A stretch of 64,000 nt of DNA from Nectonema munidae. Taxonomy: Eukaryota > Nematomorpha > Nectonematoida > Nectonematidae. The notes beneath the pieces are model-generated. The model saw only the letters and a list, made by a program, of their open reading frames with translations, did no database searches and was not told the origin of the DNA. Position numbers and translations under genes: made by a program. Position 1 is the first letter of the stretch. Each line of letters opens with the position of its first letter. Where the stretch lies: contig JAUIRK010000099.1 of NCBI GenBank assembly GCA_030549495.1, positions 1,116,001 to 1,180,000 on the forward strand, read 5' to 3'. This document shows, piece after piece, positions 6,901 to 56,019 of the stretch.

Positions 6901-9900
6901 TGGTGTGGATGTACTTGATCATATGGTAAGAATGTAGTCTACACACTGTGCATCAAGGTGGGCATTTAGCTGCTATTTGACCAAATATATTAGACATTTC
7001 CTTGTTGAATGCTTGACTGGTTCCCTATAAGATCGCTTTGAAGACACAAATTCCTTGTAAAAAGTTATTAATAACCCTTTCGTGAACATTGTATCATATA
7101 TGATACATAAACAATTTTACCTCCGTCTGCTTTTTCAAATAGTAATCTTCTGCTTTTTAATAAATATCGTCTGATTTTTCTGCTCACGAAAGGGTTATAA
7201 TCTTGCTTAATGAAGAATTAAGAGAAACTTATGTAAAAGGTAAAAAGCATTTGGTAGCTAAAACAAAAAAAATGTTGAAAGAAAGGACGTAATAATACGA
7301 GTGTAAGTATTTGTCATACTTATTCAAAAATAAGCTGTGGTGGCAGCTGTTCCACCCAGCATTCAAGATTGATTACAGTTAAATGCAAGGAATCTTTTGG
7401 ATAGTCTTTTTTTCTCTATCTTTTAATGCTTTCCCAATACATTTTTTCCTCTATGTTGTCAATTTATTTATACCTTTAATTATTTAGCGTCGATTTCGAC
7501 ACACTGGTTAAGCTAGGCAGGTAGTAAAATTTTCTGGCCATTCCAGTGTTAAATATCCCAATCCAACTCTGCAAACCGGTTTTTTCCCTTTGTGATTGTA
7601 CAGCTAATCAGACGTGATTTAGATTTATAAAACCGACTCTGGTGATCTCTTACTTTGATTAGATGATCATTTAAAAATGAGGTGTTAACAGTTAAATATT
7701 CTCATTTAATTTTGTAACGACCACAAGAAAATCGGTTTTGGTCCCATTTTGGGCTTCGAAATAGCAGTTTTCAAGCACTATACATTGTAATAATGAAAAT
7801 CAACAGGGTATCTCTATACACTAAATGACAAATAAAAATTTTTTTATAAAAGTGTTGCGAAAATCAGTGAATTTTTGCTTCTGGAAATTGAATAATTAGT
7901 GCCACTCTGAGTTAGATCAGTTTTAAGCTAAAAGAGAAGAAAATATAGTAAAAATAGAAAATCTTGATAGTGAAAAAGGTGAGTGTTCGGTGAAATTAAA
8001 ACTGGCGAAGAAGGCCGACTAATACATTTGTAACCGAACCGTAATTCACTGGTTAATCCAATTCGCAAAATCTTTAGCAAATAATAATATTCTTACACGC
8101 ATAAAAACTTCTAAACTATTCTAACACATCTGCCTTATGTAATTGTCATGGTTTTTTAAAAACCTACATTCCATAAACTTGGCTTTACGTTCTCTTTCTT
8201 GTAATTATGTTTTAATAAAATCTCATTTGATTTTTTTCGTTTTCAAAAGAAATGCTTTTCAATTAAATAATCTATATGAAGAAATGTGTGATCATTAAAA
8301 ATCGCTCCTATTATCATGTTTGGGTTTCCTTCCCAATTGGCGCAACAAATATTCGTCCATCTTGAAATAATTCGCTATTAATCGCATAGCGTTAATATAA
8401 ATGGGTTATTTACCATTACTTTGAAACTATTGTAAAGGAATGTAACCTATTTGTTTATATTGAAAACCTCTATATAACGACTACTTTACTGTGCATATAA
8501 AACAAATGGTAACAAGACAATTTGGTTCTGAAAAAATGTATTTCTTGGTATAGGATAATATGGTACAGAAGAATTTATAGTACTAGAGCGCATCACTAAT
8601 GTTTGAAGGGAAATCCAAGCACCTAACTCTGAAGCATTTAACAGCACAGTGTGAATAAAAGCTGGACACTCATTAAGCCCTGAAAATGAAGGCTGATTAG
8701 CAAAAATAAATTGTGAAGCTGAAACAAGACCAAGTTATCGGGGAGCGAAGAGTGGGAGAGGGAATCCTCTAGTATGTAATTGATTTAGCAACAACACAAA
8801 TATTATCTGTTAAAAATGAAGGAAGCACCTTTAGAACAGATATGGAACTCTTTGCACAGAACTCTATTTTCAAAGAATGGGTTTTCGTCGAAATAAAATT
8901 TTATGAGGTAACCAGATCGAATATCTTCAAATTCAACGACTTCCAGCTTGAAAAAGAAAAGAACATAAGTGAAGGCCTTGCAACGCATTAGGGTGAAAAA
9001 GACATACTTTGGTCATGTAGTGCAGGCATTCTTCCTCTTCTTCATACAAGATAGCGGATATCTCAGGCTGATTTACGAACTAAATTAGGCAAATACAAAA
9101 TCGACTTTAAAAGATAAAATGTGTAAAAGCATTGATCATAATGTGAATGGGCGAGCTTGCGTGCACCAGACACTCCTAGCAATCACAGAGGCTACGACAG
9201 GGGGCGCCAAATTGGGTTTCGCCTCTCAATAATTTTGGCGCGTACACACATATATCTTTTATATATTATTATTTTGAATTTTGAAAAAAAAATAAACTTT
9301 GCTTAAAAAAGTGGGAACAAAATAAATTTCTATACTATATAATACTAATAAAAAATCAAAGACACTAGTAGAAAATTTTAAAATAAATCTAATTACATAC
9401 AAGTTCACCCCCAACACCCAAACACTTCAAAAATGTGGCTTCCGGTGTTAGAGACTCTATAAAGTGATTGGGAGTATAGAATTCCAATAAAAATAAGTAT
9501 ATTATGAGAACCAATAAAAAATTAGATCAAGAATATAATGCTTTTCTCTTCCATTTTCAAATTTTTTCAACATTTTAAATTGAAAATGGAAACATATCCC
9601 AAATGATTACCAATAAGTTTTTGCTGGAAAGTTTTCCAAATATTTCCAACGTATTGACATTTGACTAAAATATTTTTTAATTAAATGGCGATATATGATA
9701 TTTTCGAGACTTCAAGGGCTTTTAAGCTTTTTAATTCTCGAAGGAATAGACATCAGACCCAAAAGAAAATTAATCTCACGTTATATTGTCATTCCATCAA
9801 AAAATAAAATCTTTTAAAATGATTAGCATGATTGAAACTTCCAAACTATCACTACTGAGCTATCCACACAACCTATTTCTTGTTAATGCAACAAAAATTT

Positions 9901-12900
9901 TCAGCGGTATCTAAATTATGTCAAAAAATATAAGATATCATACATTAAAAGAAAAGTTTAATGTTGAATTTATAATTCTTGTTTCTGAATCAACTAGGAA
10001 TTGCAGAATTATTCAGAGAAAATGAAGACTGTTTCGAACACAAAAAATGTTCTTTTTATGGATAAAGTTGAATTTTTAGTGGAAGCAAGACCAAAAATGA
10101 CGTGGGTTTGTCAGGAACCACTTCTTATATCAGTGACAGGTGCTAGGAGCTGAAATAGTTGAATTGTAGCTGCGATGAATAAATATTCAATGATCGATCA
10201 TAGATCACAAAATGATTCGTTGAAATTAATGACAAATGTAAGGAAGCGAAAAATGATGAACCCCAAATCGATAATGCAAGAATTTATCACTACAAAGGAT
10301 CAGTATGAAAAATAAAAGAATTGCATATTGTAATTATCCAACTTTTTCCTTTTTCTCCGTTTACAAATCCTACCGAAGGTATTTTTCAATATGGAAAAAA
10401 TTAGTTATTTGAAAAATGAGAAAGAATTTTCCTGGCAACTACACTACCTTTTAAAAATAAATAATATATTTTTGCCTCAAAATCATATTTACATAGTGAA
10501 TATACTTTCTTAAGGACAACCTCAAGACGAGGTATTTGAAAATGAAAGTACTGGACTACTGGTACAACTGCATAAGATGGTATAAGAAAGCTAAACAAAT
10601 ACATACTATACTTTTTGAAAAAAGATTAAAATCATTTTTTTCTTCAAAAAAAATCATAATAGCAAAGGATATCATAAACAAGTTCTATATACATGTGATT
10701 AGTTAGAACTAATAAAATCATTTAACCAAAAATTTCGGGAATTTACAGATAATCTAGAATTTTCTCAAGAATTTACATTGATAAAAAATGTGTCCGTTTT
10801 ATGAGACCCAAAATTAACACACAAACATAAACCTTCAACATTTTTAGCTCATTTTATTGGAAATCTCTGAGAAAAGTATTTTTAGTGATCTTTTCATCAA
10901 GAACTTAATGTATTGAGAAATTTTGTTGACTCCTTCAATTTAGTTAAAGCGTCAAGGATTTAATTCCTATGTATTAATTGTGGATTTATTGAGGCCAATT
11001 TTTATGTCGTTATTTTGAGTTGGCGGAGACAACAAAGAAAAAGTTCAATTTGTCAAAATACGGTTTCTCAAATTAACTTTTTTTCCCGAATTTTAGTTCG
11101 GATATAACTAATCTATTAATTCCAGCGTTTCGGAGTACTCCATATGGTTACACAAAAATTCAGCTTCAAAATTCTATTCGATAAGGAGTTCGAATCCGTC
11201 ACTTTTCCTTGTAAAAGCTCTAAATCGTGATTAAACGAAATAAATTGAACGGTTCCTAGAAACAAGTCGTTATATGCAGCTTCTAATATTTATATAATTA
11301 TGAAAAAAACTGATATTACTGAGAAAGACAGCGATATGTGTTTGGCGTGAAATAATAAGTATTATTGATGAGTGGTGAGTCAACAAAAATGCTGTATTAC
11401 AAAAAAAGCGTAGTAATTATTATAATGAAGAAATGAATTACAGCAGAAACCCAAAAGTTGGGAATTTCTTGGATGAGTTTGTTGCGCTCTTCAAAGTGTG
11501 GCTTCCTCAGTTCATTGTAGGTTTGCTCCACCTTCAAAATTTCTTCGCTCGCTTTCTCGTTCAAAATGTCAATCTTGTTTTGACAAGCATCAATCTTTTC
11601 CAAAATTAATTGCGTGTGCGAGTCATAATCATGAGAGCCATTGTCGCCACTGATAGCTGCTTCTGAAGTATACAAAATTATCTGCTAAGCATATATTGCT
11701 CACATAAAACAAATTTCTATATACAATATTCAAATATAAAAATTAGTAGAACACAATATTCCTTCCACCCTCCCTTATAAGCAAATACCCCCCCCCCCCC
11801 CATGTAAAACATAATACAATTAAACTTCCTCTCATATACTCTCTTAAAGTTTTGTCTCCATTAAAACAAAATGAAATATCAAAGATCTTTGCTACTATGG
11901 AGCAAAATGACGAATATCGGAGGAAAAATTTTGATTTAAAAAGTTCTGCCACAGCAAATATTTTCATTTCCTTTTTTATCATATTCCCTAGGAAAGCTAA
12001 TTGATTTAAGATCTTTAAGAAAGGGCACAAACTGAAGACTTACTCATTTCCACTAGAATTGACTCAATTGTAAAACCTGCACAAAATCATCATATTTAAA
12101 AACAATAGGAACTAAATTACAATGTAATAACGAAGCATTTCCACTAAAAAATTTACTTATTTAAATAAATCACAAGTTAAAAATATCTTAGTCTTCCTAT
12201 GAGTAGGGTTGGTTTAGATGCTGGATTCGATAACTCAAGGTCTTGGGTTCGATCCCGCATCAAGCCTGCTTTCCTCATAGTTCGATACAAGCGGCGCATT
12301 GGGCCTTCTCGATGAAAACATTCCCTTTAGTTTTCCTATATTTTTTTGACTTTTTAAAGAATATTTCGTTATTCTATGATTAATTGAGAAATGTGCTATC
12401 TAAAATCGTTCAAACCTAGTTTATCAATTCTTAAATCTAGCAAAATATAAACAGAAATTTGATCCTGTCTCATTAAACATTTGTATCAGAAAACCTTTTG
12501 GTTGGAGATGACAATCAAGTTGTCTACCCGCGTTCAACCGTACAGGTTATATATATATGGGTATATACAATATATACCGATGTAAGTTAACATTTAAACA
12601 CCTTAAATATGCCTTCAAAAATAGGCCACGACAACAGTCGCTAGTCTTAACGATTGAAACAGAGGCCCCCCTCATAAATTAAGTAGAAATTTGATATTAA
12701 AAATAGTCTTGTAACGAGGCTAAACATGAACGCAAACTTCAAAATGACTAGTATATCATATATATCGGCAAAGTGGTCGATATCGACACCTGGGGGTCCA
12801 TAACAGATCTTTAGGGGTCGATAAGATAGAAAAACTTACCAAATTGTTCTATGCTTTTTTTAGTTTATAGTAGTAATAAATCTCATTTTTCTTTTAAAAC

Positions 12901-14699
12901 ATAGTTTAGCACATTGTATAGGGTAGGATATATGAAACATTTTTGGTTTATATTTCTCTCTTAATTGTTGACATTGATTAATGCTTTTATGAAACATTTC
13001 TATGTGGGGTGGGGGTCGATGCGAAGATTTGTATATTAACCCATTTACGGACAATGTTCCTATTATGGAACATAAGTAATTTCATCTTCGTCTGCTTTTT
13101 TCAATGACTTTGAATATAAATCGTCTGCGTTTTTTTAGATATCGTCTGCTTTGCTTGGCTTTAAAATTTATGTTTTAATTAAATTGTATTAAATTTGTAT
13201 TAAAGAGAATTAATAAACGCAAACGATTTTATTTTTGTAAAGTCAAGTTTGTCCGTTAACCGGTTGAGAAAGTAAGTTTGTATATTCAAATTTTTCCTAC
13301 GCTTCACCTAATATTAATGATTCAATCTTTTTGAATTACACGGTCATGCTCTCATAAATCCTCATAGGTAATATTGCACTATCCGTGCACATGTAGTAAA
13401 AACGAGTTGACTTCCCAGTTAAATGAACGTGAATCCACATTTTTTGAGTTGGATCCTTCATTTTATCATACTTTTTCGATCCAAAGAGTTGTTTTTTATT
13501 ATTATTAAAATTAGTTCATTAGTTTTAATGACTAAATCAAACGAAATGACGTAACAAAGAATGCTTTTGAAAAAACTTCGTAAAAATGGGCAATATCCAA
13601 CTAAATAAAAATTTCTATTTGCTAAAACCTTCTTGTACTAAATATTTATTATATTCAGCTTGTGCACGGATAGTGAAACATTGCCCTTCTCATAACATAC
13701 AAAAGATTTTAGATGAAGTACATTTATGAGCTTATAAAGTATCTTATTGTTTTACAAGTGTAACATACAGTGGTCTAGCATGTATTATTTTTGTGAAAAC
13801 ATTTTACAACACTTCATTGATGCAGACAGATTTATATTAGCTTTAAATTTTTGAGAGAATAGAAATAAGGGGTGGAGCATTGCACCACAGGCCCTGTTCT
13901 AGATATACAAGTGGTAACATATGATAGAGTTTATTCATAAACATGTGAATTAAGTTTGAAACAATTTAAATATTACACAGAAATTTGTTAATCCGGTTTG
14001 TTCTCATTTCTGGCTGCACCACTAATTGCTCATCTAAAATCAGCCTTAAATCCCACAATGAGATTCAAAATTTGCCGAACAGTGGTGACGAAAAAGAATA
14101 ATATATCCATTCGAATAGAAATTAATGTCAAGTTTTGTTTAAATCGTAGCACTGCGCGCATATTCAAGATATAATTAACGACTATCCCAGTATAAAAACT
14201 AGCAATCCCAAAACTACGTGACAAGAAAATTGAACAAGGAGATTACGAGTAAGCAAACCAACCAGTTATCCTTTGGAGGAAAATAAGGCATTGCTACACC
14301 GTGGGTAATTAAAGATAAACAAAACCACCTTGATAAACTCAGATGAAAAGGTTTTCATATATTTTTCGATAAAATATAGGTCTATATTAAAAAACTATTA
14401 TGAACCCATAAACAATACTGTCGAGGGATTATTTAATATGAACAGAAAAGGACATGACAACAAAAAATAATAGATAATTAGAAGAGAATAAAAGCTAAAC
14501 ATTATTGAAAAACGAGGACATTCTAATCTGAATTATAAAATTTTTAGATAAGGAAAAAGCCAAAAAATTTTAATCCAGTAAATCAAGTCAATAAATATTT
14601 TGATAAGAACATTAAGATAAGAATAAAAAACTTACCGTCAGATTTTCTCATCTTTTTAGATGGTGGAGGGGCTGCTTTATTTTCTGACTGAGAAGACAT
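937..14699 (-). CDS. SET: SET / TAF-I histone chaperone (I2PP2A), 7 coding exons
   Basis: Coding exons on the minus strand, in order: 14699-14636, 11662-11442, 9079-9008, 8946-8829, 6130-5961, 4302-4113 and 992-937 (stop 937-939). They total 891 nt and predict 296 residues; every junction keeps frame and every intron is GT-AG. SET is a nuclear NAP-family chaperone that binds histones, blocks histone acetylation and inhibits PP2A. Visible features: a basic KKMRK stretch near residue 15; a dimerisation helix at about 40-90 ([17 protein letters not shown]); the earmuff fold at about 96-230 ([30 protein letters not shown], then TFFSWYSE and [14 protein letters not shown]); and an acidic tail from about 231. 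Length matches the usual 270-290 residues. The start has A at -3 and begins the only N-terminal exon that joins in frame. Introns hold SINE, hAT and MITE copies. Family assignment is very secure; the last exon is less so. Confidence 0.95.
993..4112 (-). other. SET intron 6 (AT-rich, no recognised element)
   Basis: A 3.1-kb intron if terminal exon 7 is used. I see only AT-rich unique-looking sequence with homopolymer runs. There is no coding, RNA or terminal-repeat signature. Confidence 0.5.
4099..4302 (-). CDS. SET: SET coding exon 6 and acidic tail, with read-through stop
   Basis: Starts [15 protein letters not shown], the last conserved SET block, then an acidic run ([20 protein letters not shown]). 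If spliced at 4113|4112 (G|GTGATT) it joins exon 7 in frame. If not spliced, translation continues five codons (GDFF) to a stop at 4099-4101, giving a 282-residue protein. The donor is weak, so both forms are plausible. Confidence 0.93.
   Translation of the reverse strand, partial: AIKDDLWPNPLQYFLAQELDADENGIVSDEMGIGSEDEDEEDDIYDGEENEGDAADLQEDNEAGDFF
4303..5960 (-). other. SET intron 5
   Basis: AT-rich intron. A plus-strand 62-codon frame at 4935-5123 (start [12 protein letters not shown]) is antisense to the gene and resembles nothing I know. Its only oddity is two copies of ATTTTAAAATCA inside it. I treat it as non-coding. Confidence 0.5.
5961..6130 (-). CDS. SET: SET coding exon 5
   Basis: Encodes the split D and [15 protein letters not shown] through [19 protein letters not shown]. 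The W-K and FFSWYS motifs match the second half of the earmuff domain. Acceptor is TTAACAG and donor is GAA|GTAATT. The two junction bases complete a GAC codon with exon 4. Confidence 0.94.
6131..8828 (-). other. SET intron 4, containing one TTAA MITE
   Basis: A 2.7-kb AT-rich intron. The only recognised insertion is the MITE at about 7,071-7,199; the rest shows no coding similarity. Confidence 0.5.
7071..7199 (+). mobile_element. TTAA MITE (piggyBac-like), copy A
   Basis: Perfect terminal inverted repeats TAACCCTTTCGTGA / TCACGAAAGGGTTA. The perfect 18-bp palindrome TGTATCATATATGATACA is at 7090-7107. Three direct repeats of (C/T)(G/T)TCTG(C/A)TTTTT follow. No coding capacity; it lies in SET intron 4. 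Confidence 0.85.
8829..8946 (-). CDS. SET: SET coding exon 4 (earmuff domain core)
   Basis: Encodes [20 protein letters not shown] then [19 protein letters not shown], the most conserved part of the NAP/SET fold. It is separated from exon 3 by only 61 nt. Acceptor is TTTTTCAAG. The donor is inferred as AAAG|GTGCTT because it restores frame into exon 5. Confidence 0.95.
9008..9079 (-). CDS. SET: SET coding exon 3
   Basis: A 72-nt phase-0 exon of 24 residues ([20 protein letters not shown] then YMTK), too short to appear as a free reading frame. It follows acceptor AAATTTAG and ends at donor GTATGT. It fills exactly the gap between WVSA and LEVVEFEDI expected for SET. Confidence 0.93.
9080..11441 (-). 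other. SET intron 2, no recognised element
   Basis: A 2.4-kb AT-rich intron. Short frames at 10,401-10,604 and elsewhere show no family resemblance. A patch around 9,140-9,240 is less AT-rich but carries no pattern I can name. Confidence 0.45.
11442..11662 (-). CDS. SET: SET coding exon 2 (dimerisation helix)
   Basis: Residues 22-95. It runs from [10 protein letters not shown] to IPNFWVSA and holds the long amphipathic helix with [19 protein letters not shown]. Acceptor is TATACTTCAG and donor is GCT|GTAATT. An open reading frame runs on into the intron as hydrophobic residues; that part is not coding. Confidence 0.95.
11788..11801. repeat. Poly(C) run, 14 bases
   Basis: An uninterrupted run of 14 C in SET intron 1. 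Its length may be a sequencing artefact or truly variable. Confidence 0.8.
12200..12340 (+). repeat. SINE family 1, copy 2
   Basis: Same tRNA-like head (GGTTTAGATGCTGG, GGGTTCGATCCCG) and body as copy 1, in SET intron 1. The 3' tail is diverged. Confidence 0.8.
12755..13030 (-). mobile_element. Related non-autonomous hAT fragment
   Basis: Inverted relative of the element at 28,091-28,473. It shares TCGGCAAAGTGGTCGATATC, GGGGTCGATAAGATAGA, ACATTGTATAGG-type sequence and CATTTCTATGTGGGGTGGG. It has one 20-bp-type unit in place of five, and breaks off just before TTAA MITE copy B. Confidence 0.75.
13036..13266 (+). mobile_element. TTAA MITE, copy B (long, composite)
   Basis: Starts TTAACCCATTTACGGACA with palindrome ATGTTCC..GGAACAT at 13054-13073, then three TCGTCTGC-type repeats. 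About 90 bp of extra sequence lies before a right end resembling that of copy G (AAACGCAAACGATTTTA, AAAGTCAAG). It looks recombined from two copies. It abuts a hAT fragment in SET intron 1. Confidence 0.7.
13367..13686. mobile_element. Terminal-inverted-repeat element of unknown family
   Basis: About 320 bp bounded by GGTAATATTGCACTATCCGT and, inverted on the right, GGGCAATGTTTCACTATCCG. Both continue GTGCACA. It encodes nothing recognisable and is probably a MITE. The ends do not match a superfamily I can name. Confidence 0.6.
13806..13912. repeat. Second copy of the AACACTTCATTGATGC repeat
   Basis: Shares the AACACTTCATTGATGC..GACAGATTTATATTAGC block with 17,139-17,190. It is followed by AAGGGGTGGAGCATTGC, which may belong to a transposon end. 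Element borders are unknown. Confidence 0.35.
14636..14699 (-). CDS. SET: SET coding exon 1 (N-terminus)
   Basis: Begins [21 protein letters not shown] and ends in phase 1 at a strong donor (G|GTAAGT). The PPPSKKMRK stretch resembles the basic N-terminal tail of SET proteins and is a likely nuclear localisation signal. The context before the ATG (GAAATG) has A at -3. Confidence 0.85.
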
Positions 14700-15299
14700 T
14701 TCAAAAGAAAATAATGGAGGGCGAAAAGATTACAACGGGAAAATGTTCAGCAAAAGAAACAATAAGTGTGAAACGGTAGATGAATGCGCTAAATACAAAA
14801 TCTACGCCTAAGTAAATTATTTTTAAAATTAAAGAAAAAAATATTATAATAAATAAAAATAAATTAAAATTTTCTCTACTAAAAATAATCTTTAAAATTT
14901 ACTTTCTTTTTAAATTTTTATATTATTTAACAGGAAACGCAATTAATTATAAAAAATGTAAAACGGTTACAGTGTAATAATATTTTAAATAATAAAGATA
15001 TTTTTTTAAATAATTAAATATTCATAATAAGTATAAATTATTTGTATTTATACTCTTAAATTTATAATATCGTCCTAGATGGACTGCTATTAAGTGTCCC
15101 CTTGACTTTTTTCTCTTTTAAAATTTTTATATTTTCTTGTAATTATTTCTATTAACTGTTTTGTTTTATCAATAAAATTTTCTTCTTCTTCTTCTATTAT
15201 TGAATTTATATTATTGTATTTATATAATTAAAGATTTTTTCCCAACTATAAATATGCAATGTCTTTTTCTTTTTAAATTCTTTATTTAATTCTTCATTA

Positions 15300-15357
15300 T
15301 ATGTGAGCATATCAGCACACACTGGAAAGTGCTTTGAAATCTACCTACCTACCTACC
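15300..15357 (+). repeat. SINE family 2 3'-end fragment with (CTAC)n tail
   Basis: The piece with AGCATATCAGC and GGAAAGTGCTTTGAAATC matches the 3' end of family 2. It is followed by a pure CTAC repeat where other copies have AACC. Confidence 0.5.
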
Positions 15358-16982
15358 TTATATGTTTAGGCATGTATTCCAATTTAAAAAATATTCCAAT
15401 TTAATGTAATAGAACAAAAAAATATATACAATTATTACAAAAAGACAAAAAATAACTTTATAATGATTTTAATATTTTTATTAATAAAATAAATTAAAAA
15501 ATAGGATCCAACAAAGTTTTTTTTAGCCACCTTAATCTGCCTAACTACCAATTAGTTCCAGTCTAAAAAGTTTGTAACGACGTTAGAAATAAAAAAACAA
15601 AAATTCATAAGTTTTCATTCTAAAATTTTAATGATTGTCAGACTTGTGATTTGATTAATAATTTAAATTTCGAAACCAGGCTAATTAAAATAAACAGATA
15701 TATTATTTTTAAAATGTAATATAAAAGTTCAAGAATGTTTTGTCTTTTTGAGTGTGATTTTCTTATTCATATATCAATTAATACAATAGGTCTAGCTTGT
15801 CCGGATCAATTAGTCTTTCGATAATTCATTGAAATAGTTCAACTGTTCTTTGTTGCTTTGGCTCGTTACAACTGTTTGCTCTTGGACGCATTAGGTTGTG
15901 TTTCGAATGTGTCTACATGTTTAACAGTCAAAATACAGGTGGCTTAGAGGATGTGAGATATTGGCCCTTACATTAGAAGTAAGCATGTGTGAAATTTTAA
16001 GGCTACGAGTGAGGTTTGATCTTAGCTAAGGTAGATCTAAAGTTAAATGTTTAATCTTAGCTGTTTATTTTTTAGATTTTAAACTCTCTACCGTTGATTT
16101 ATTTAAGATCCTTCCGTCATGCTGCTTCCAATGACGAGCTATTTGTCATCACGGGGATTTATGTTATTGACCCCATAGAGTTATCCACAAGCCCAGAGAT
16201 TTCTATCTGCGTTTACAAATTATGTCAGCCAATTTTTAACTATTTTTGAACATATCCTGTCAACTTTTGACAAAATCATTCCACCTCCCTCTTTCTAACT
16301 TGATGTAATTTTATTTTTCTATCAATGAAAAAAATGTAACATGTTCCTAAATAACAATAGTCTTAGATATTTTATTTCGATTTTTTATAATATTATTCAT
16401 TTATTCAATCAAGACGAGAAAAAAACATTTACATAAAAAAACGATGAAATCAGTAAGAAGACAGCCAAGTATATCCTAATGTTTCTTTCATTCTTCTGTC
16501 TATATGTCGATCGGATCAAAAATATTTTTAGTAAAAACTTCAATAGTTTCACTCTCTTCCTACTCTTTGTCTTCATCATGATACGTGTCTTCCGAAACTA
16601 CGCCTGCATCTGCACTACGCACTCTCTCTTGTGCATTTATTCCTTTGATGCCCGAATGATATCGATTACATTTCAGACCGGTACACATCTTCTTTACCGT
16701 ATGACCCTTCTAATCCTTCTTCTGAAATGAACTGCTGAACACGTCAAAGCATTCATGTCTCAAGCCCAATAACTTCATAAGCAGCTCCTACAATTGTGTG
16801 CGAAAGTGGACATTTTTGGGTCAAAGGATAGACCCAAAAATGCATCAGTAGCACAATATGAATTCATTGAGGAAGAAAAAGTGTATGCAATTGTTATGTA
16901 TTTCAGGCTTGGGTCATTCTGATTTTATCATCGTAGCATCATCTATATTTGTGAAACTTTTTTGTGCTAGTTTAATATCCAT

Positions 16983-17195
16983 CAGAGGCGTAGCCAGTGG
17001 GGTCAGTGGCGCAGCGAAAAATATAAAATGGGTTGGCACAAAGGACACATTTTTTCATCTCTAATTTATCAGAAACTTAAAAGTCAAAAAATTTTTATTA
17101 AAAAGTTGAAGACTGGAAATTTTTGCAAAAAAAATTTAACACTTCATTGATGCTGATAGATTTATATTAGCTTCAAACTTTTAATCTTCATGGCT
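16983..17195. repeat. Dispersed repeat with hAT-like end (CAGAGGCGTAGCCAG)
   Basis: Begins CAGAGGCGTAGCCAGTGGGG, a hAT-style terminus. It later contains AACACTTCATTGATGC..GATAGATTTATATTAGC, which is also present at 13,806-13,856. The two copies share about 50 bp with few changes. No right terminus was found. Confidence 0.4.
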
Positions 17196-17214
17196 TTTTA
17201 TTCCAATTTCACTA

Positions 17215-20950: not shown

Positions 20951-21415
20951 TATAAACGCTAGAAAATTGAATTAGAGATGGCATAGAAACAGAATTTTTG
21001 GGAAAATATACAAATAGTATTTAAGGAGAATGTTGATCTATGTATGTTAATCACTATAGTAGTAGTTACCTTTATGTTAATATCTGTTTCCATCCATCGT
21101 TAGCAAGCACTTAAAATGTCTATTTCACATTTCCACCCTCAACCACCCAACGTAACACATAAAAATTATGATTTGATAAAGAAAGAATATAATCTAAATG
21201 CTACTGTTTATTTTTATGATGTTAGATTTAGAACAGCTCTGTTTAAAAATGCAATATCTTTGACGGTTTGGCTTTTTGAAGCTGATTCTGCAGAAATAAG
21301 TTAGCCAGCAAGACTAATCAGCACTTGTTACTATAAAACATTACGCGCAACAATGGAAGGTGTAGGAAAATTCCTTCAATATAATAACGTATTGTATGTA
21401 TGCAATAAGATTAAG

Positions 21416-21562
21416 CTTAAGGTACCGTGGAGTGTTTAAATCGAGAAGGCACAATTGCGACGCTGGTATCCAACTATGAGGAAAGTGGGCTTGATATGGG
21501 ATCGAACCCAAGACCTTGAGTTATCGAAACCCAGAATCTAACCAACTTTACTCACGCCCAAA
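21416..21562 (-). repeat. SINE family 1, copy 3
   Basis: Minus-strand copy with the box B-like GGGTTCGATCCC and the conserved body, ending in a GGTACCTTAAGCTTAA tail. Somewhat diverged (for example GACGCTGG in place of GCCGCTTG). Confidence 0.8.
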
Positions 21563-28090: not shown

Positions 28091-28473
28091 GAGGGATCAG
28101 CAACTTTTTTACCCCTTGACCCCTATAACATTTGTTTTCATATCGACCCCCACCCCACATAGAAATGTTTCATAAAAAGATTAATCAATGTCCGAAAGAA
28201 AAAAACCAAAAATGTTTCATATATCCTATCCTATACAATGTCCTAAGCTATGTTTTAAAAGAGAAAGGAGATTTATTACTACTGTAAATTAAAAAAATGC
28301 ATAGCACAATCTGGTAAGTTTGTCTATCTCATCGACCCCTAAAAATCTGTTATCGACCCCCACGGATCGATATCGACCCCCACGGATCGATATCGACCCC
28401 CACGGATCGATATCGACCCCCACGGATCGATATCGACCCCCACGGATCGATATCGACCACTTTGCGACCCCTG
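28091..28473 (+). mobile_element. Non-autonomous hAT element with internal minisatellite
   Basis: About 383 bp. The left end reads GAGGGATCAGCAAC and the right end TTTGCGACCCCTG, which together resemble the hAT terminus CAGGGGTC(G)GCAA. Flanks ATCTAGAA (28083-28090) and ATTTAGAA (28474-28481) match at 7 of 8 positions, the target-duplication length of hAT transposons. It has no transposase. It contains the 20-bp tandem array listed separately, and a diverged relative lies at about 12,755-13,030. Confidence 0.82.
28351..28450 (+). repeat. Perfect 5 x 20-bp tandem array inside the hAT element
   Basis: Five identical units of TATCGACCCCCACGGATCGA, then a partial unit TATCGACC. The unit contains TCGATATCGA palindromes at each join. 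The relative at about 12,770 has only one unit. Confidence 0.95.
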
Positions 28474-40500: not shown

Positions 40501-43500
40501 ATTGTCCACCTCATCAAATATTTCTGTTGCTATTGTTCTTGTTAAGAGTTTCTCAATTTTTTTATTATCATATTGTACGTAGACGCAAGACTGAATTAAG
40601 TTCCGAATCAATAAATCCACCTCGACAGTATGCCATTAGACATCTCTCGTATTAACCTTCTTTAACAGTAGGGTATGCTTCAACTTTTCAAGTCTTCTTG
40701 GCATATTCAATATGATATCTTTTGCAGCAAGGTTATATCAACTGTTCTCCTATGTTGTGGATTTTTGAGGACATTTATTTTTTAAAAAATTTTATAGAAG
40801 GCTTTAAAACCCGCATTTAATATTTTGCAAAAATATTCCTATGTTATCAAACGTGGATTGTGCAATTTTGCCTTGTTTACCGAACATGAGTGCTCCACTT
40901 CTAAGTGTTTTTTTTAACTTACCGGGGTTTATAAAAGTGGATGTTAGCGCTTCAAAACACAAACAACAGTGTGGTTCCTTTTCCCCACCAGACGCTAATG
41001 CAGTAAAAACAAATTACAAATATGAGGCGCCATATTTCTTTTTTTAGGCCATTAAGAAAAAAACACATTTACATCCATAAAATTAGGCCTGAAAAGCAAT
41101 AAAAATTATAATTTAACTCAATTCAAAGACTAAATTTCTTCTAAATGTGACTTATTGACAAAAATGGCAAATGACCCAATATGGATGCAATATGTTGCGC
41201 AAAATGATGCACTCATTGACCCCTTCGAGATTCCCATGAAACTGCTTTGCAATCTTCTAGGGAACTTCGGACTCCTCCAGTGTGAGAACCAATGAGCTAG
41301 AAGGTAGTAATGCAATCAGAATTACAAACAAGGTAATTTGACCTGAGAAAATCCGCGTAGTTATAACGGAATTGGGAGCTTACTTGGTAAAATGGTGAAG
41401 TGTTTATTAGATGATAAATTCTGAAAAGTAGTAAAAATTAGTTTGGTATTTAAAGGTGAAACACCACTTTCGTGTTTCTAGTCGTAAAAGAACGGAGAAG
41501 GCGAGGAATTAAATTAATTTGATTCCAAAGGTACCAAGAAAAATTATGGAATAATTCAGTTAATAAAAACAAAAAAAATAAAGAAAAATTTTTTTCCAAT
41601 GGTTTCCTAAAACTAGAAATAAAAGAGAATCGTACACTTTAACCCATTAAGGACCAAAGTCAACTATAGTCGACTTTATGAAAAATACGATCGTCTGCTT
41701 TTATAAATGTTTTTTAATACAAATCGTCTGCTTTACACTAGATATCGTCTGATTGTTTTAGTCGTTAATGGGTTAATTGAAAGAAATGCAATTTCAATTT
41801 AGGTGATTGGAATTTTTTTTCCTGATATCTCATATTTTTATTTCGAACAAATCAATTTTGTCAATCGAATAAAAGAGTTTCATTAAGAATGAGGCAAGTT
41901 TGTTTACCTCGAAGAATGAGTAGTAGTGTGGGAAAAAATACTTTTCTTGTCCAGTTGGCTTCTTTCTATTCCTTTTCCTCTTGGCGGAAGGAAGGGGCTT
42001 CAGCTTTGGGTTGTATTCGCCTTTGAGGGTGAAGGTTGCTTCGCCAGCGTACAAAGTCGTGCCATCTCTATAACTCATTCCATCCAGCATTTGCTTCGCG
42101 AGATTCACAGACTCAATCTTCCCAAAATATGAAAGAATATTTAAAGCCGGCTTGCGTTTGCAAATCCTCCCAAGTTTTTGGGAAATACCTCCCACTCAAT
42201 CAAATAAAAAACATACAAACTTTGAAAGAGTTCCTAGTTCTGTGAATGTGTCCAGATGATTTGAATCGAAGGTTAATTTCTCTCCCGATATTCAAAAGAA
42301 AAAGTGCAATTAATTATAATGATACAATTTAGCATTTCAACTTTATGATTTCAATTAAAAAAATAACCTATGATTTATACCAAAATCTAAAAAGGCATAT
42401 ATACTTGCTATAAGGCGAGCAAAAAATGGACATACGCTCTTTTCAATTACTTAGACATCGAATGTCACAATAGTTGGATTGTTTCTAAAGCAATTCTTTT
42501 AATTTGCATTTTAAAGTTTAAGTCTGTCTAAGTTTCATGTCTAAAAATGTCTTGAAACATCAATGAAGTTAAGATCTCAAAACTCACGGACTCCTAGAAA
42601 TATAATGAATATTTTGTTGATATATGCATTTAAAAATTTATAATCATCAAGCTTAACCCATTAAGTACCATAGAAATCAGACGATATTTAAAAAAAACAC
42701 AGACGATTTATATTCAAAGTCATTGAAAAAAGCAGACGAAGATGGAATTACTTATGTTCCCAAATAGGAACATTGGGACTTAATGGGTTAATTCGATACA
42801 CGTACAGAGAGATAGTTAAAAATGAGGAACCAGAAAATGCAATAAGTGTCATGAATAAAGACAAAAGACTTTTGTCCAAACTACCAATGCTTGTCCACAG
42901 AAACGTACAATATGCTTATACTTTTAGTCGAAATTTTTACACAACGTAGTGTCGTGTACTCTCAAGCACTAATTAACGTCTGCCTTGCAAGCATATCCAA
43001 GCGCTCATCAAATGGAGAAGTTAATTGAGAGCATCTGACTTTCAAAACTCAACTAATGCGCACAGATCACCGCCACTTTTTGCTACTATAAAAAGACGCA
43101 ATGATTCGCCATTTCTTTCTTTTCACTAGTTGCTATATTTAACTAAATTAAGAAATCCTAGTTGCGCTTAGTGAAGAACTTCATTTTCTTCATCTCAAAT
43201 TGATCTTTTCTTTTTCTTTAATAAATGAAATGGGAATGCCCGAGTCAAAAATAAAGATGGCGATTGAATATCAATCAATATATTTAGTTAAAAATTTTAT
43301 AGCACAACGTAAATCAAACAAATTTTATATAAAAAAGCCCAAAATTTTCCAAAACTAATAACAAATATAACGAAAAGTATTTTACTTTTAAAAACTTAAT
43401 TGATTATTATGTACTTGTTAGTTAAGTATTGTTTCTGCCGCCCCCATGATATCCTTCAGATATCGTGGTCCCGCCCAGAATGCCGAGTTTAGGACTACCT

Positions 43501-46500
43501 GGACTTTCCATCCCACTAAATGCCTAATACCCAAATGTTTGTCGAAATCGCATCCAAGAAAAGAGCGTTTTTATGTGCTTGGACAGATGATAGGAATGAT
43601 CATGATGGGGAATTGAATCCAGGATCATTCGATCCCAACCATATGTTCTCAGCATTAGACTATCTGTCGACAAATATAATTAACTGATTATGTATTTGAA
43701 TGCATAATTCGTTAAATTTGCATGTTTTTGTTTTAAATCTCATGTGCTAATGCTATATTAAATTGAATCAAATCACTCCATTTTTAAACTTTGAAAAAAA
43801 GTGCATATAGAAAAAACTTATAATAATAAAAAAGTTATAAAGTGTAAATCCAGTAGCGTAACGTGTAGCAATAGCATGATTCCCATAAGGAAGTCAATTT
43901 AAACTATAATGCCAACCAAATTTTATTAGAAATTGATTAGAGGTCTCGATAGCAAAATAAGAGAGAGGGAGTGGATATTTCTGTTTTGAATCCTTTAATT
44001 CTTTTATACTTCTATTTCTAAGAAATTAGTCTAAGTAATTGAAAACTGTATCTTTAGCCATCATTTATCTTTAGTGTTAAAGCCAAATACTCACCATTTT
44101 GTTTTTATAACATCATTTTAGTATATTTGGAGGGTGGTGTGAGCAAAGTGAAACTTGCTGTTGGCGATGTCTTAGATGTGAATAGCAGGAATTGGGTGTG
44201 TAGTCGGTATGTGGATGGCTTATGGGTAGTGTGTAGATAAGGAGGTTTATTTGTATCTTATATCCATTTTGTTTAAGGAATAAAGGTAGTGTTTACGGTT
44301 TTTTCGTTTATCTATGGCTGAATATATTGAGGCGTCATATGCCATACCTTTAGGTAACAACAGCGTCCATCTCCTTTGTAATTTCCAGTTTCCGGATTCT
44401 CGTACAACTTCAATTTGGGCTTTTTTGTTTGCGGATCTTCCATGATGATGCCGTACTTACCCATTAGTTCACTAAACTCATCCAAAGTTATATCTGTTGG
44501 CAGCCCAGAAACATAAACTTGGGTGTTATTCCCAGCATCCACTTGAAACCATTCTAAAATTATTCAAAAAGTTGAAAGCATTATTTACTTCGCTTCTTTG
44601 CAAAGAGAGAATAAAAACAAATTAAAGGGTTAAAGACATTCTTCTAAGATCTCGGATTCGCGCCAAGGAGAAGAGAGCCTTTCAACATAAAAAATTGAAA
44701 AAGCATATCAAATTCAAGGTCAAAGAAGTCATAAATAATAAAAGATACAGATGATTTTAATAGCAAAATGGATTTTTGCTTCAAAAGAACAAGTGTTGTT
44801 TGCTTTCTTTGACAAGAATTGATATGTGATGAAAATATTTTGTTAGTGTGTTGTGCGAGTGTAAAAATTTTGTAAGGCTGAAAAATCACCAAAATGTGTT
44901 TCCAATATAAGAAAAAACTTAGACCAACATGCATGCTTTCAGTAATCAATTAGATTGAATCAAAGGCTGTACAAGTTGTATTTTTCCAAAAAGATTTTGA
45001 ATATGAGAATTCAACATCAAGAATTAAAAGAAAAATTTTATTCTTACGAGTTTTTGGTCAATTATTTGGAACAAATTTTGCGGAATGTTAATGTACCAAG
45101 ATTGTCTCTAGAAGCTACTGATATGAATTAAGTCAAAGCCACGCATTTGATTAAAACTTTCACCATTAAACTAAAATTGTGGAAATTAAGCATTACTAAC
45201 AACACCTGGTCTAAATTTGTGAAGATACAAATGAAAGAACTGAATGAGGAGAATATAACTATAATTTGCAATGATCGGGTATTTCTGCATGACAACTTCA
45301 ATATTCGATTTCACTCATTTGTTGATGCTTCACTGGAAACAACACCATGAGAAGAAAAATGTATACTGATAAAATTGTCTGACATTTTGGGCGAGCTTCG
45401 CTCTGAAATCGAATAAGAAACCCCAATTTATGTGAACAAGCTTCTTCATACTTCATATTTGACTGACCAAGGTTTTTTTTATGGTTCTTCATTCATTCAA
45501 TCAATCAATCAATTAATCAATCAACAGAGAAAGTGCTTACAGCTGGGAAAATATTGCGCATTACTCATCTACAAGCATGAATGTTAATTCGGTTGATAAA
45601 GAACAAACTCATAAGGAGAAAGCATGTTCGATTGTTAGTAAAATAAATTTCATAAATCTCCAAATTTTTGAAAAAAGAAAGATAATTTTTATTTTAACCG
45701 ATTAAGTCCAAATGCTCCCATTTGGGAACATAAGTAATTTCATCTTCGTTTGCTTTTTTCAATGACTTTGAATATAAATCGTCTGTGTTTGTTTAGATAT
45801 CGTCTGATTTCTATGGTGGGTTAATAAACTAGTTACAAGAATATGTCTGTTCAAAACTCACTTTCAGAACATTGTACATTCATACTACGAAGACATCTTC
45901 TTTTTTCAAATCCTATGTATTGGCGGCGCTCAAGATATTTTTAAATTTTTATGGGGTTCACAGCAAAAAAAGGTGGAGGAATCATGGCTTAGTTACATGT
46001 AAAAATTGACTTTTAATACACAAACACAATGAATATAAGGAAACCCAGAAGAAATTAAAATATTCAGCAACACGTACATGTGGGCGCAGATAACTTTTCG
46101 CTATTTTTCCACGATTCACTCAATACCAAAAAATGTTAGGGGCAAAAAAGAAAAGAACTTGCCCGGTGTTTTTTTAATCTCAGGCGCGCTTAGTTCCTTC
46201 TTGTTCTTATTCTTCTTTTTCTTTTTGTCGTTGTCTTCATCACATCTTTTGGTGAAAGGAATCCATGTTTGAAATGTTTGATCAAACTTGAAAGATTTTC
46301 CTGTTTCCGAATCCGCCCAAACGTATGCCTGGACTTGGTCGTCAAAGACCGGCTCATTAACTTTTTGGTCAGAGGAGGCGGGTTGTTGTTGCGATAGCAT
46401 TTCCCCACTTTCCTTATCTTTCCAGCATTCTCTTGGAAAGAGAAAGAATTAAAAAGTGGGTGAGAAAATGATTTAAAATACTCTTTCTTATCCCAAATAT

Positions 46501-49500: not shown

Positions 49501-52500
49501 GTAAACATGAAAAAAACGAAGTGGATTGATAAAAAGAATTCCGTGATTGCCAAGATCGATCAATGCGGCATATGTTGTAGCAGAGTCAAGCATAACTCTT
49601 AAAGTTAGAAATATCATTAAAAAATGAGATCTCTTTAAGAGCAGAGTCAAGTTAGAAATGGGTTCATAGATGTTTGAATATCAAAGGAAATCTCATTAAA
49701 GCCAAAAATTTTACTTGCAAACGTTTTAAAGAAGAAACAAAACATGTAGTTCAACAAGAAGAAATTTTGGTTGTCTAAAATTATAATGTATAAAAAGTGG
49801 ATGAATTTTGTTATCTAGAGGACGTGATAGATGACAGTTCAGGTGTCAGCAGTGCAATTGATTTCAGAAATAAATTAAAAAGTAGAAGTAGTTTTTTGTG
49901 CTGTAAAGGAAGTGCGCTTAGATTAAAAAGCTTGGTTTATTCGTCTTGCGTAAGACACGTTCTTAGTTGTGGAGCCCCAAAAGAAATTGATAGAAGAAAG
50001 CTACAAACAAATGAAATGAGAATGTTAAGAATGCTATGTGAAATAGCTTTGAAAGATAAAATAAGTAATGAAAATTTGAAGTCAAACTGGGGTTATTTAT
50101 ATCAATAAAGTTATAAAAACGCAAAGACTCAGATGGTTTGGACATGTCTCGAGACGTGACAGCGGAGAACTTATAAAGGATGCTTCAGAACTAAGTTTTA
50201 ATAGAAAAGTGAAAGGTAGACGCAAAATGACCTGGACAGAAAATATAAAGAAAGATATGATAAGTTTAGAACTAAAACTTGGTTATGAAAAAGAAAATCA
50301 AGTTTATGTGAGTCAGTTTTATTAATTTTGTTGCTTCGTGAAGACAAATAGTTTGGAGATTTATAGCCCTTGATAAACTTCATTATGCATTTCTCTGAAA
50401 TAAGGATTTATAGCTATCATATGAGCTATAAGTTCGATGAATAAACAGTTATATTATGCCAGCGATAGAAATTTCAAATAGTTACGGTTCTTGACGAAAA
50501 GATACTGGCAAACAGGATCTAAAATAAAATTAATCGGCAGATGGCTTAGTGGTAGGAGCGTAGGGTCTTGATTCAGATGGTCTGGGTTCGAATCTGGATC
50601 GTGACTATCCTTACCATCCGTCCAGCAGTAGAATATTATTCTTCCCTATAGATGCGATACTGACAACTAAAAAAAATTGAATGAATAGCACAGGTTAGGC
50701 AAGATTTTTTTGTTTAGACTTCCCCATTAGGACATGGAAAGACAGTGATCGCAAGCCTTTATCCGTTCTTATAGCTTTTAAACAGTTATCAAAATCGATG
50801 GTCACAATTGCCCCTTCATATTCGGATGTTCTCGTACTGAAACAACTGCATGCCTAACAAAAAGTCTTATCGCTAGCTATGCTATACTCTGATCAAGTAA
50901 GGTTTTATACCATGACTCTAAAAACAATTTCTCTTTGTAAATCTTTAGGAAACAGAATTCTTGGCTAAGCCGAAGGTGTATTAAGTGTTCGAATGTTAGA
51001 AATGTCTTGTATTCTGAAGACAGTATGGAAATGCGTGCATTAGAAGACTTATTGGTAATACAATCAGTCATCATTTATTCAGCATTCGATTATTCGAAAA
51101 CCCAGAGCTATTCGATACAATATTGATTAGGAGCAAAAAGATTTTTCTTCCCCTCTCCTTTCACCAATTGTCAACAGATCCATTTCATATGAAATAAATT
51201 GGTTAGGTGAATTGATTACTCTGTACTGAGACACTTTGATGCTTAAAATGAAATTTTAAAAAACAAAAAAATATTTTATAAAATCTTCAAACTACACATA
51301 TATTGAGTTAAAACAGTAAATTATTTGAAAATATATTTATTACTTGAGTCGATGAATTGACAGGTATGAAGTTTGGTTTTAAATTTGGCCCTTTTGAAAA
51401 GAAATTGAAAGTTTAATATGTATGAAAGAAAATTTCTACCAAATCTTAAATTTATATGAACTAGCTATTTAATTCCGTAAGTTATATGCGATAAATCACA
51501 CGAAAACTAAATTATTTGTACAAAGTTATATTAACAAAAATTCCAAGGAAAGTATGAAACATTGCCAACTATCCAAAGTTTAAATTATGCTTAGAAAATA
51601 TGATTAAGCCATTTTTCCTAACTTATGTGAATTATATTAATTTAACTCTTTCAATTACAGTAATCAATAGGGATAAACGTTTTAAGCTTAAAATTATAGA
51701 GAAAACTTTCTTATATAGTTATGTGCAATAAAAAAATTGCACGGCTGAAAAAATTATCCGCTCTAGTTCAAATTAGTAAAAAATTGATTTTAAATATTCA
51801 TTCTAAGATTTAGTCTTAAAACAAGAAAAAGTCTTAAAAGTCTTAAATAATATAAAAAAGATATGGAATTGAGAGAAATCAAAATTATTGGGAGAAGGTG
51901 GCAAAAGGCTTTTTGGCTACCCCTTCTGGATGGAATAGCCTTTCTTATGGCTTTGTTAGTGGAGATACCGCACAGAAGGGTATTAGCCCATTAAGTACCA
52001 TAGAAATCAGACGATATTTAAAAAAACACAGACGATTTATATTCAAAGTCATTGAAAAAAGCAGACGAAGATGAAATTACTTATATTCCTAAATGGGAGC
52101 ATTGGGATGGGTTAAACTTAAAAAATCTTAAAAACTGTCTTATGTTTAATTTTTTGAATGAAATGCATAGCAAAACTTTTTAAAATTAAAAACTAGTTTA
52201 CATTTTGTGGATAAAAAAGACAGTCATGTAGAGCTATATTTTTTTTATGTCGTCCAATTTCTTTCAGTAGGGGGTCGAACTAGACTAGCGAGGGAGGCCC
52301 ACTACTATTAATTAAAGATGTATTGGATATCCGCCTCCAGATGCGCAGGTGCGAATTATCCGAAATTTTTTTTATATCCTCTTAACATCCTCATAAGTTT
52401 TCTCCATAAGTTGGGTTTTAAAAGAATCTGAAAAAATAGACTAAACACCACAGAGATGAGGATGTTAAGAATTATGTGTAAATTTAATTTAAAAACTAAA

Positions 52501-53428: not shown

Positions 53429-53429
53429 T

Positions 53430-53437
53430 TATCGATA
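53430..53437 (-). promoter_or_regulatory. DRE-like motif TATCGATA beside the HTATSF1 start codon
   Basis: TATCGATA sits one base upstream of the ATG. In Drosophila this is the DREF site found in many housekeeping promoters. It may be chance in AT-rich DNA, and would then lie in the 5' UTR. Confidence 0.25.
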
Positions 53438-53985
53438 TCGTATTTGCTTGTTAAACATTCATAAAGGAGATGTATTGTAAAATCTTTAAGAACAAGACGT
53501 TTACCAAAAGTATGTAGTCTTTTTTTTCCTTATTAAAATAATTAATCTAATTTAATTGCCTAAAAAATTATAACATCATAAAATAGAATAACATAATCTA
53601 AATCTAAGAAAGGATACACGTTTATTTTTAGTTTGAAAATTTGCAACAGAGAAAGGCCTTTTATAACGCACAAAAACATTTTACCCATTTTATTTATATA
53701 TTGGCATAAGAAATATATCTACCAAAAATATCCATGCAACAAAATAATATTAGATTTTTGCTATGTTGGAGATCACTTTTTTTAAATGTCAAGTCTGAGT
53801 CATATTTATTATTACGACTCCGATTCATTCTAAAAACGTGAAACTCCATCGACTTCAGAAGTCTGGATTTAGCCAAGTCTATTGATTATATAAGAGTAAA
53901 ATATAGGATGCAATTATTTTTATCAAAATTTTAACTTTAAAAATTTAAAAGATACTATATTTAAAATATTAAATTCAGAACAAAT
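53438..53985. other. Sequence upstream of HTATSF1
   Basis: About 550 bp before the first SINE. AT-rich; apart from the TATCGATA beside the ATG I see no promoter element that can be trusted. Confidence 0.4.
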
Positions 53986-54180
53986 CAAGGAGTTGGTTGG
54001 TTTTGAGATATCAAAGCACTTTCAGCAGTTAAGCTATATGCTCGCATTATGCTTAAGATGGTTAATCACAGTTTTTGTGAATTTGTTTTTAGAGTTGGGA
54101 GCCTTGGGGATCGAACCCCTGACCTTCAACTGTTAAGCTGAGAGGTACACCCTAACAACCATGAGGCTCCTAATCAAGGA
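53986..54180 (-). repeat. SINE family 2 (tRNA-derived), copy 1
   Basis: On the minus strand it starts GGAGCCTCATGGTTGTTAGG and has box B GGGGTTCGATCCCC with a closing CAAGGCTCC, so the head still nearly folds as a tRNA. The body carries GCATAATGCGAGCATATAGC and ends at AAGTGCTTTGATATC. It lies between the HTATSF1 start and the satellite array. Confidence 0.75.
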
Positions 54181-55882
54181 GTTGAAATCCAACTAAATTT
54201 TAATAAATTTTAAATATACCATCTCATCATTAATGACACTAGAGCAAATTAAACAGGATTTTTAAAAAAAATTAATGCGAAAAATGTTTTGAACAAAATT
54301 TATTAGACTATTCAATTATAAAATTTGAGATAGTTTTTTTACAAAAAAATAAAAGGATCATGAAGGCGAAATAAATTCCATAAATGGTATCCCCTCACAA
54401 AACGCATATGAAACGAAATCAGTTTATGAGCTTTATTTTAACGTCAAAACACAAGTGTAGAAAATCTGAATGGATCAAACCTAAAATTTTGATATTACTT
54501 CTATGTATTGATAAACTAATAGCAAAGCTAAATAAAGTTTCTTGATGCGCCATCATTACATAGGAGATTTAAACTGGTTTACATGCAACTGCACGCTACG
54601 CATTTTATTTATAGCTTGTCTGAAATGCAGTTGAAATTTGTTAAAATGAAATAGCTCTTATGATTATGGAAATATTTTATCTTTGAAATAAACTTTTGAT
54701 CATTTTATAAAATTCATTCTAAAAATAAAAAAGTGTACAAGTTAAATACAAACAATTATGGTCATATTTCTCAATAAGCATTACTAAAACAGAAGAAAGC
54801 CACTTTACTGAAATCGTGTAAAACTTTCTGTATTCTATTCTGATATTTATAAAGTCACACAATTGCAAAATAATTTTTTTTAGATTTTTTTTATTTTATA
54901 ATTTTAATATCTTAGTTAGATATCTCCAGGACTTCTTTAATCTTAACTGATCTATTCATTTTTGCTGCTTATCTTATATTTATATTTTTTTTATTTTTAT
55001 ATTTGTTTAGTATCTTATTTTAAATTCTTTGTTCCCCATATTTAATATCAAATGTGAAAATAAACTTACCATTTTACAGACTAAAATCTTCTAAACAATC
55101 TCTTGTATGGAAATTTACATAGTTTTGGAATGCAAACTTTTCCGTTTTTTTTTGCAACAATTCTTCTTATAATATTTAAAAAGATCAGCTATTAATGAAT
55201 TGTTACAATAGTATTCTGATCCTTGATTTTACTATACCTCTGTAAAATTATTGTTTTCTTTTGTAAATGTATAGGCGATATATGGTATCTTTTTTCATTT
55301 TAACTGGAAAAATCTTATTCACGGCCATATTTAGCTATTGATTTTTCGTATAATGATAATCTTGAAAAAGATGATATAGTTCTTCATGTGAATATATATT
55401 ATAAATATTAACATATATACACATTGTTTGCTCCACTTTATTATTTTTGTGAACTCTCTTTTTTTATAATAAAATTTTCTCTCTCTCTCTCTATTACAAT
55501 ATTATATATAATATTATATAACTAGTAGTGGGATTCCGGTTATGTTGGAAAAAGTCAAATTCTGTCTTTTTATCAAATGTATCATATATGCTAGCTTGAA
55601 CGTAAATGATAGTGAAAATCTAGGTATTATATAAGATACGTTGGTCATTAACCGGATAAAAACATAAATGTACAGAGAAAACATGTACGATACAAATAGT
55701 AACAAACCTGGTCATCACTTGTATAAATAAACTATGCACTAAATCACAAACGAAACGTACCGTTCCAACGCTTTCGGTTCTTTTCGGATGAGAAGCAGAA
55801 GGTTACTGACAGCGACTAGTCGGTTCGTCGAACTCACAAAATTCTGTGAGACGGTTCTAACGAACCGACTGTATCCCACTGC

Positions 55883-56019
55883 TTAACCCTTTATCGGCTA
55901 CAATAATCAGACGATATCTATTGTAAAGCAGAAGATTTGTATTAAAAAACATTGATAAACGCAGACGATTTAATTTTTATAAAGTCGACATATGTCAACT
56001 GTGGTTGATAACCACTTAA
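55883..56019 (-). mobile_element. TTAA MITE, copy G
   Basis: Left end TTAACCCTTTATCGGC and right end ATAACCACTTAA. Palindrome AGTCGACATATGTCAACT at 55983-56000 has one mismatched pair. Internal AGACGAT / GCAGAAGAT / GCAGACGAT repeats. Intergenic. Confidence 0.8.

Follow-up and report, generated by a model that had tools for sequence, protein, structure and literature searches.

The window, a stretch of 64,000 nucleotides from the nematomorph Nectonema munidae (GenBank assembly GCA_030549495.1, contig JAUIRK010000099.1, positions 1,116,001 to 1,180,000 of the forward strand), harbours seven copies of a miniature inverted-repeat transposable element (MITE) flanked by TTAA, with a palindrome near one terminus. 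The copies had been noticed in an earlier sequence-only reading of this DNA; all of them were found to be present, and all are members of one related genome-wide group. The right-end pattern shared by the group has 1,941 matches in the 211.6-Mb assembly, against 0 for reversed controls, and the left-end frame TAACC-N2-TT-N5-CCA-N2-GT-N12-AC has 3,250 matches, against 1 for the reversed pattern. TTAA starts every subfamily consensus and ends most aligned copies. The tips are of the CCC type (CCG in the left tip of class 2a), left and right tips being identical at 13-15 of 16 bp within each subfamily. With consensuses of 137-138 bp, too short for encoding a transposase, the elements are, judged by these features, non-autonomous MITEs of the piggyBac superfamily. 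The copies in the window, with the half-site classes described below, are:

7071..7198, forward strand: copy A, class 3; palindrome TGTATCATATATGATACA at 7090-7107; TTAA mutated to ATAA/TTAT
13036..13173, forward strand: copy B, class 1b; palindrome GTTCCTATTATGGAAC at 13056-13071; right terminus decayed
41639..41776, forward strand: copy C, class 2b; palindrome GTCAACTATAGTCGAC at 41659-41674; CpG decay in one arm
42653..42791, reverse strand: copy D, class 1; palindrome GTTCCTATTTGGGAAC at 42756-42771
45694..45824, forward strand: copy E, class 1; palindrome GCTCCCATTTGGGAAC at 45714-45729; right tip partly deleted
51983..52115, reverse strand: copy F, class 1; decayed palindrome at 52085-52100; 5-bp deletion in left tip
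55883..56019, reverse strand: copy G, class 2a; palindrome GTTGACATATGTCGAC at 55984-55999

Positions within the elements are numbered from the first base after TTAA. In the five subfamily consensuses the symmetric stretch lies at bp 17-32, with its dyad at 24.5; the class 1b consensus has 6 of 8 positions paired at this dyad, tied with dyad 15. A sample of 118 distinct full-length copies (28 of class 1, 32 of 1b, 26 of 2a, 21 of 2b and 11 of class 3) was drawn from 90 of the 100 listed right-end places, 8 and 30 further loci, five 10-kb and two 3.3-kb stretches, and the window; 191 matches yielded 129 full-length copies, of which these 118 were distinct. The sample favours copies in which the right end or the left frame is intact, and contigs with low numbers. 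The best symmetry over 8 pairs (16 bp) was found exactly at dyad 24.5 in 87 of the 118 copies (class 1, 19/28; 1b, 29/32; 2a, 18/26; 2b, 11/21; class 3, 10/11), ties not being credited to 24.5 where the rival dyad was larger. Five class 2b copies have their best symmetric stretch at 23.5. The window copies A to G have 8, 5, 7, 6, 6, 4 and 7 of 8 positions paired at dyad 24.5, respectively, and this dyad also holds the best 10-pair stretch in copies A to E, which were covered by the scan. Copy F, for which a small deletion and a decayed palindrome had been reported, has indeed lost 5 bp of its tip. No comparable palindrome was found at the right ends, where the best stretches reach 5-6 of 8 pairs at varying places.

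It had been proposed that the palindromes fall into three unrelated classes. The half-sites are distinct, GTTCC in classes 1 and 1b, GTCGAC in 2a and 2b and GTATCA in class 3, but every class has GT at bp 17-18 and AC at bp 31-32. Because these three classes use T, C and A at bp 19, left ends with G at bp 19 and C at bp 30 were searched for as well. Among the 30 matches, 4 pair over bp 17-22 and carry CCC tips, and the four copies of this fourth class that were fetched (L149-L152), with half-site GTGACA, read GTGACACCCGTGTCAC or close variants. They have 7, 6, 7 and 6 of 8 pairs at dyad 24.5; other places tie with this dyad in L150, and another place, AT-rich and further in, scores higher in L152. 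Motifs of the AAATC[GT]TC type follow the palindrome in L149, L150 and L152 and are decayed in L151. One of them, L150, is a whole MITE; it measures about 125 bp, and its right tip is similar.

The claim that both arms of the palindrome have changed together holds between lineages and fails within them. Across six sequences (L149 of the fourth class and one consensus for each of the five subfamilies) both sides were changed in 6 of 8 pairs, 2 pairs were invariant and none had changed on one side, with all four base pairs represented at pairs 19/30 and 20/29. The centre pair 24/25 is unpaired in 3 of the 6 rows and pair 22/27 in 1. The covariation score was 0.883; shuffling gave 0.205, with none of 500 shuffles reaching the observed value, and sliding gave no more than 0.211. 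Of the cells, 91.7 % pair, compared to 57.8 % after shuffling (reached by 0 of 500). Within subfamilies, 715 pair cells were counted over pairs 17-23, excluding gapped cells and a class 1b pair with a non-pairing consensus: 659 were unchanged, 52 had changed in one arm, 4 in both arms without pairing and 0 in both arms with pairing. Since changes are paired between lineages and one-armed within subfamilies, the symmetry was reset at lineage formation, single copies decaying afterwards. Copies C and G were considered as paired changes and rejected, one arm having changed in each; GTCAAC in copy C and GTTGAC in copy G look like GTCGAC with one arm decayed at CpG. A double change was seen in C114, a class 2-type left end outside the sample, with G-C instead of C-G at pair 19/30, in a search that selects for such changes.

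Each half-site class is one lineage, as was shown for the three classes tested. In a tree of the interior only (71 columns, tips and palindrome excluded) the three classes need 2 changes, the minimum, and each lies on one side of a branch (support 83, 99 and 92 in the Shimodaira-Hasegawa-like approximate likelihood ratio test, SH-aLRT); with so few columns the tree is otherwise poorly resolved, 1 of its 87 inner branches being starred. As the first class labels came from the best-matching full-length seed, interior included, the test was repeated with labels taken from the half-site letters, by which 100 of the 118 copies could be labelled (18 unclear). Again 2 changes were needed, and none of the 100 labelled copies combines the half-site of one class with the interior of another, so that there is no sign of block rewriting. 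Between half-site classes the interiors are 65-79 % identical (47-58 of 72-73 positions) and the tips agree at 8-11 of 14 positions, while the inner 12 bp of the palindrome agree at 0-5 of 12, for instance 0/12 versus 49/73 of the interior between 2a and 3, and 3/12 versus 58/73 between 1 and 3. Taking interior identity as the null, the inner block is less alike at P < 0.003 in five of six class pairs and at P = 0.024 for 2b/3; this test covered 6 of 8 between-class pairs. The interior TCGTCTG motifs are kept across the lineages, in agreement with the sequence-only reading, whereas the termini, which had been described as alike too, differ by class, in step at both ends.

Palindromes at this distance from the tip have been studied in related transposons. 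In Trichoplusia ni piggyBac (pB) a dimer of the cysteine-rich domain (CRD) of the transposase binds bp 17-33 of a left end, with the minor groove centred at approximately bp 25 (PMC7351741). In piggyBat a CRD dimer reads a palindrome that is unrelated to that of pB and has no right-end counterpart; the piggyBat CRD has a different fold, and the CRD of human PGBD3 is thought to be of the piggyBat type (PMC11707139). Human MER85 is a 140-bp TTAA MITE with the palindrome GTTCCATTATTGGAAC located 3 bp inside its 13-bp 5' terminal inverted repeat (TIR), at that end only (PMC3459987), which places the palindrome at bp 17-32. Replacement of the palindrome reduced PGBD3 binding in vitro by 80 %, and replacement of the TIR by 60 %; the perfect palindrome is present in 291 of 363 PGBD3-bound and in 48 of 526 unbound genomic copies (PMC3459987). 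Between these systems and the Nectonema MITEs the dyads agree within about one bp. Moreover, the MER85 half-sites (GTTCC/GGAAC) match classes 1 and 1b at 10 of 10 positions, compared to 4-6 of 10 in classes 2 and 3.

The architecture is thus already known: it is that of MER85, with a length of ~140 bp, TTAA, 13-bp TIRs, a palindrome at bp 17-32 of one end and the GTTCC/GGAAC half-site. Unlike the MITEs described here, with at least four half-site classes in related lineages of one genome, MER85 is described with one palindrome sequence (PMC3459987). The MER85 palindrome was shown to bind the transposase (PMC3459987). The ends of piggyBac and piggyBat resemble the MITE ends in carrying, at nearly equal distance from the left tip, a palindrome read by a CRD dimer, their sequences being mutually unrelated; both elements are, in contrast, autonomous and from different hosts, and pB has its palindrome at both ends (PMC7351741, PMC11707139). 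Coral CMITEs are alike in TTAA, a length of ~100 bp, CCC-type tips and tandem arrays, and their interior carries the same TCGTCTG word; their families differ in their ends around a conserved interior, which the MITEs here may resemble; no palindrome is described for them in the accessible part of the report (PMC2872659). Their consensus and that of class 2b share TAAAATCGTCTG, the longest common word at 12 bases (8 of 2,000 shuffles reach 12). The statement that no MITE family had been described this way was therefore too strong in view of MER85 (PMC3459987) and the coral CMITEs (PMC2872659). Several half-site classes at one fixed dyad in a MITE group were not found described in open-licence full texts.

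It is very probable that the palindromes are docking sites for transposase dimers, the specificity of which diverged by lineage. A CRD dimer of the transposase would dock on the palindrome with one CRD per half-site, and as the two CRDs would read their half-sites in opposite orientation, any shift in specificity has to show in both arms. The distance from the cleaved tip would fix the position of the dyad. As the MITE lineages diverged, half-sites and tips would have changed, GT/AC at the outer positions and the TCGTCTG motifs of the interior being retained, most likely because the transposases that moved the lineages differed in their CRDs. We infer the CRD binding from pB, piggyBat and PGBD3, and likewise the link between class and transposase; the palindrome versions may reflect different transposases, because the site matches the position at which related transposases dock as a pair. 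A dimeric protein site had been among the causes suggested earlier, and the match in position to the pB CRD dimer and to PGBD3-MER85, together with arms changing in step between lineages, supports it well. A more detailed proposal is a docking code in which dyad and GT/AC are fixed and the mirrored positions 19 and 20 take all four bases, so that lineages use, and perhaps insulate among, transposases of different CRD specificity; this we regard as possible, at slightly worse than even chances.

The other suggested causes fit less well. A hairpin or cruciform, for which symmetry is needed structurally whatever the sequence, would account for sequence that varies while symmetry stays, and the capacity of inner repeats of piggyBac to form hairpins or cruciforms is a subject of discussion in print (PMC12324416). 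It gives no reason, however, for the constant dyad distance of 24.5 bp from the tip, for the constant GT/AC, or for the match to the pB and MER85 sites at which protein binding has been measured, and class 1b retains a non-pairing centre; we consider it very unlikely. Rewriting of the palindrome as a block by template switching or gene conversion would explain why the classes are less alike in the inner block than in the interior, and it could be read into the collapse of class 2 sites to one half (11/47) and into the double change in C114, found by a search selecting for it. Against this stand the minimum of 2 changes for three classes on the interior tree, the complete agreement of half-site and interior in the 100 labelled copies and the lack of any pairing-preserving double change among the 715 within-class cells. 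Template switching thus finds no support and is extremely unlikely.

Binding of a host dimeric factor, rather than the transposase, that aids transposition or expression also deserves consideration, since dimeric host factors read palindromes too, and the cognate transposases were not found. The position of the palindrome equals, nevertheless, that of transposase-bound sites in the piggyBac-family systems studied, and an autonomous family in this genome has palindromes by its own transposase gene; a host factor is judged highly unlikely. Two protein searches yielded 5,564 and 5,647 first-look candidates, and scores were obtained for 150 and 74 of them. The family in question is represented among those scored by six copies, which hardly differ in score and have reading frames of 590-608 amino acids, ~35 % identical to pB. 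Downstream of its copy at L153 lies TTAA-CCCTTATTAGGATGG, taken as the 3' end from the tip alone, and GTGACTACATTTTGTAGTCAC is located at bp 43-63 of this putative end, with the dyad at bp 53. In pB the palindrome of the 3' end is located 31 bp internal to the TIR (PMC3459987); for a TIR of 13 bp its dyad likewise falls at bp 53. Exact GTGACTACATTTTGTAGTCAC occurs at 11 sites, against 0 for the control. Next to 8 of these there is a transposase match among those listed, and in 6 cases the site follows the end of the match by 121 bp. When up to 3 mismatches are allowed, the counts are 183 sites and 35 for the control. Among the sites listed at this threshold, C59, C19, C87 and C198 have three palindromes each, two of them 178-179 bp apart, and on C59 and C19 a transposase match lies among the three (among the matches listed). 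Three palindrome copies have likewise been reported for the PGBD3 element (PMC3459987). Judged by the GTGACTACATTTTGTAGTCAC sites near transposase matches, autonomous elements here come with palindromes of a further, different sequence.

A number of observations weigh against docking by lineage-specific transposase dimers. No autonomous parent with the ends of a MITE class was found, and among the 100 matches listed, of 302 to class 3 tips, no pair at 1-6 kb was seen by eye. When transposase matches were compared by eye to the listed MITE end coordinates, the one proximity, on C163, was a complete MITE ~2 kb from a transposase match, and no element ends were found from the single copies L134 and L135. 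The palindrome of the 590-608-amino-acid family was read by letters at one 3' end only, and the 11 exact GTGACTACATTTTGTAGTCAC sites do not include the C617 copy. A second autonomous family, ending in TTAACCTTCGC (582 tip matches versus 87 for the control), has left ends of which none of 10 (6 different sequences) reaches 7 of 8 pairs at any dyad, the best being 6 of 8 at dyad 24 in 2 of 10. Not every piggyBac element here therefore uses the design, as this family lacks a strong palindrome near bp 25. The readable transposase C-termini (L129, L130, L133 and L135) are by eye of the pB type, while the CRD of PGBD3 is taken to be of the piggyBat type, so that the match of GTTCC to MER85 may be coincidence; by our own estimate, from four classes and three free letters, the chance of such a match is about 6 %. 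The fourth-class pattern itself was not enriched (30 matches versus 37 for the control), and the count of 6 double-changed pairs, unlike the other measures, was matched by 39 of 500 shuffles. Pair 18/31 is missing in 13 of 28 class 1 copies, and in 11 of 47 class 2 copies one GTCGAC-type half is all that is left. The class 1 copies without this pair and the non-pairing centre of class 1b show that symmetry is not absolute. Either a perfect site is not strictly required, or the many copies with an asymmetric class 1 or a collapsed class 2 site are dead; the collapse is likely recurrent, needing 10 changes on the poorly resolved tree.

The palindromes offer a natural set of matched, symmetric variants of a site, all at the same position and in thousands of copies, in a genome rich in piggyBac transposase genes and with some families young. 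The CRD recognition code, known in detail from two solved systems, could become readable from sequence and open to direct tests, and switching of a MITE between transposases could be revealed.

The autonomous piggyBac family with the TTAACCTTCGC 3' end is young: over ~2.5 kb of L135, among the 40 candidates scored, at least 15 other copies have a rounded identity of 100 %, and three more have 96-99 %. The window itself holds transposase remains between copies C and D:

42400..42489, forward strand: piggyBac-type transposase relic; 30 amino acids, 73 % identical to the L132 transposase

A weak relic of the same type lies at 6863-6970, near copy A (E 0.03-0.08). A frame match common to L108 and L132 was considered as the end of an autonomous element and rejected, as homology continues upstream of the TTAA. 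Head-to-tail series of the MITEs, some with a common TTAA, were seen at C32:241504-242933 (right ends 279 or 558 bp apart), C5:95548/95682 and C47:35683-36519.

Other repeats in the window include a dispersed repeat at 55552-55664 (reverse strand), also present at L132:4085-4235, with two subterminal-looking palindromes, GTATCTTATATAATAC and GTATCATATATGTTAC, and 38 matches; it was rejected as a piggyBac end, since homology extends past its TTAA. Another dispersed repeat, with GGTTCGATCCC, occurs at 230-378, 12207-12298, 21411-21531, 58449-58545 and 62000-62148. ARAGORN found no tRNA gene; GGTTCGATCCC is what we take to be a tRNA B-box-like motif, and the repeat is possibly a tRNA-derived short interspersed nuclear element. 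A perfect tandem array of 5.4 copies of a 20-bp unit is located at 28351-28458 and adjoins inverted repeats that recur at 12775-13025.

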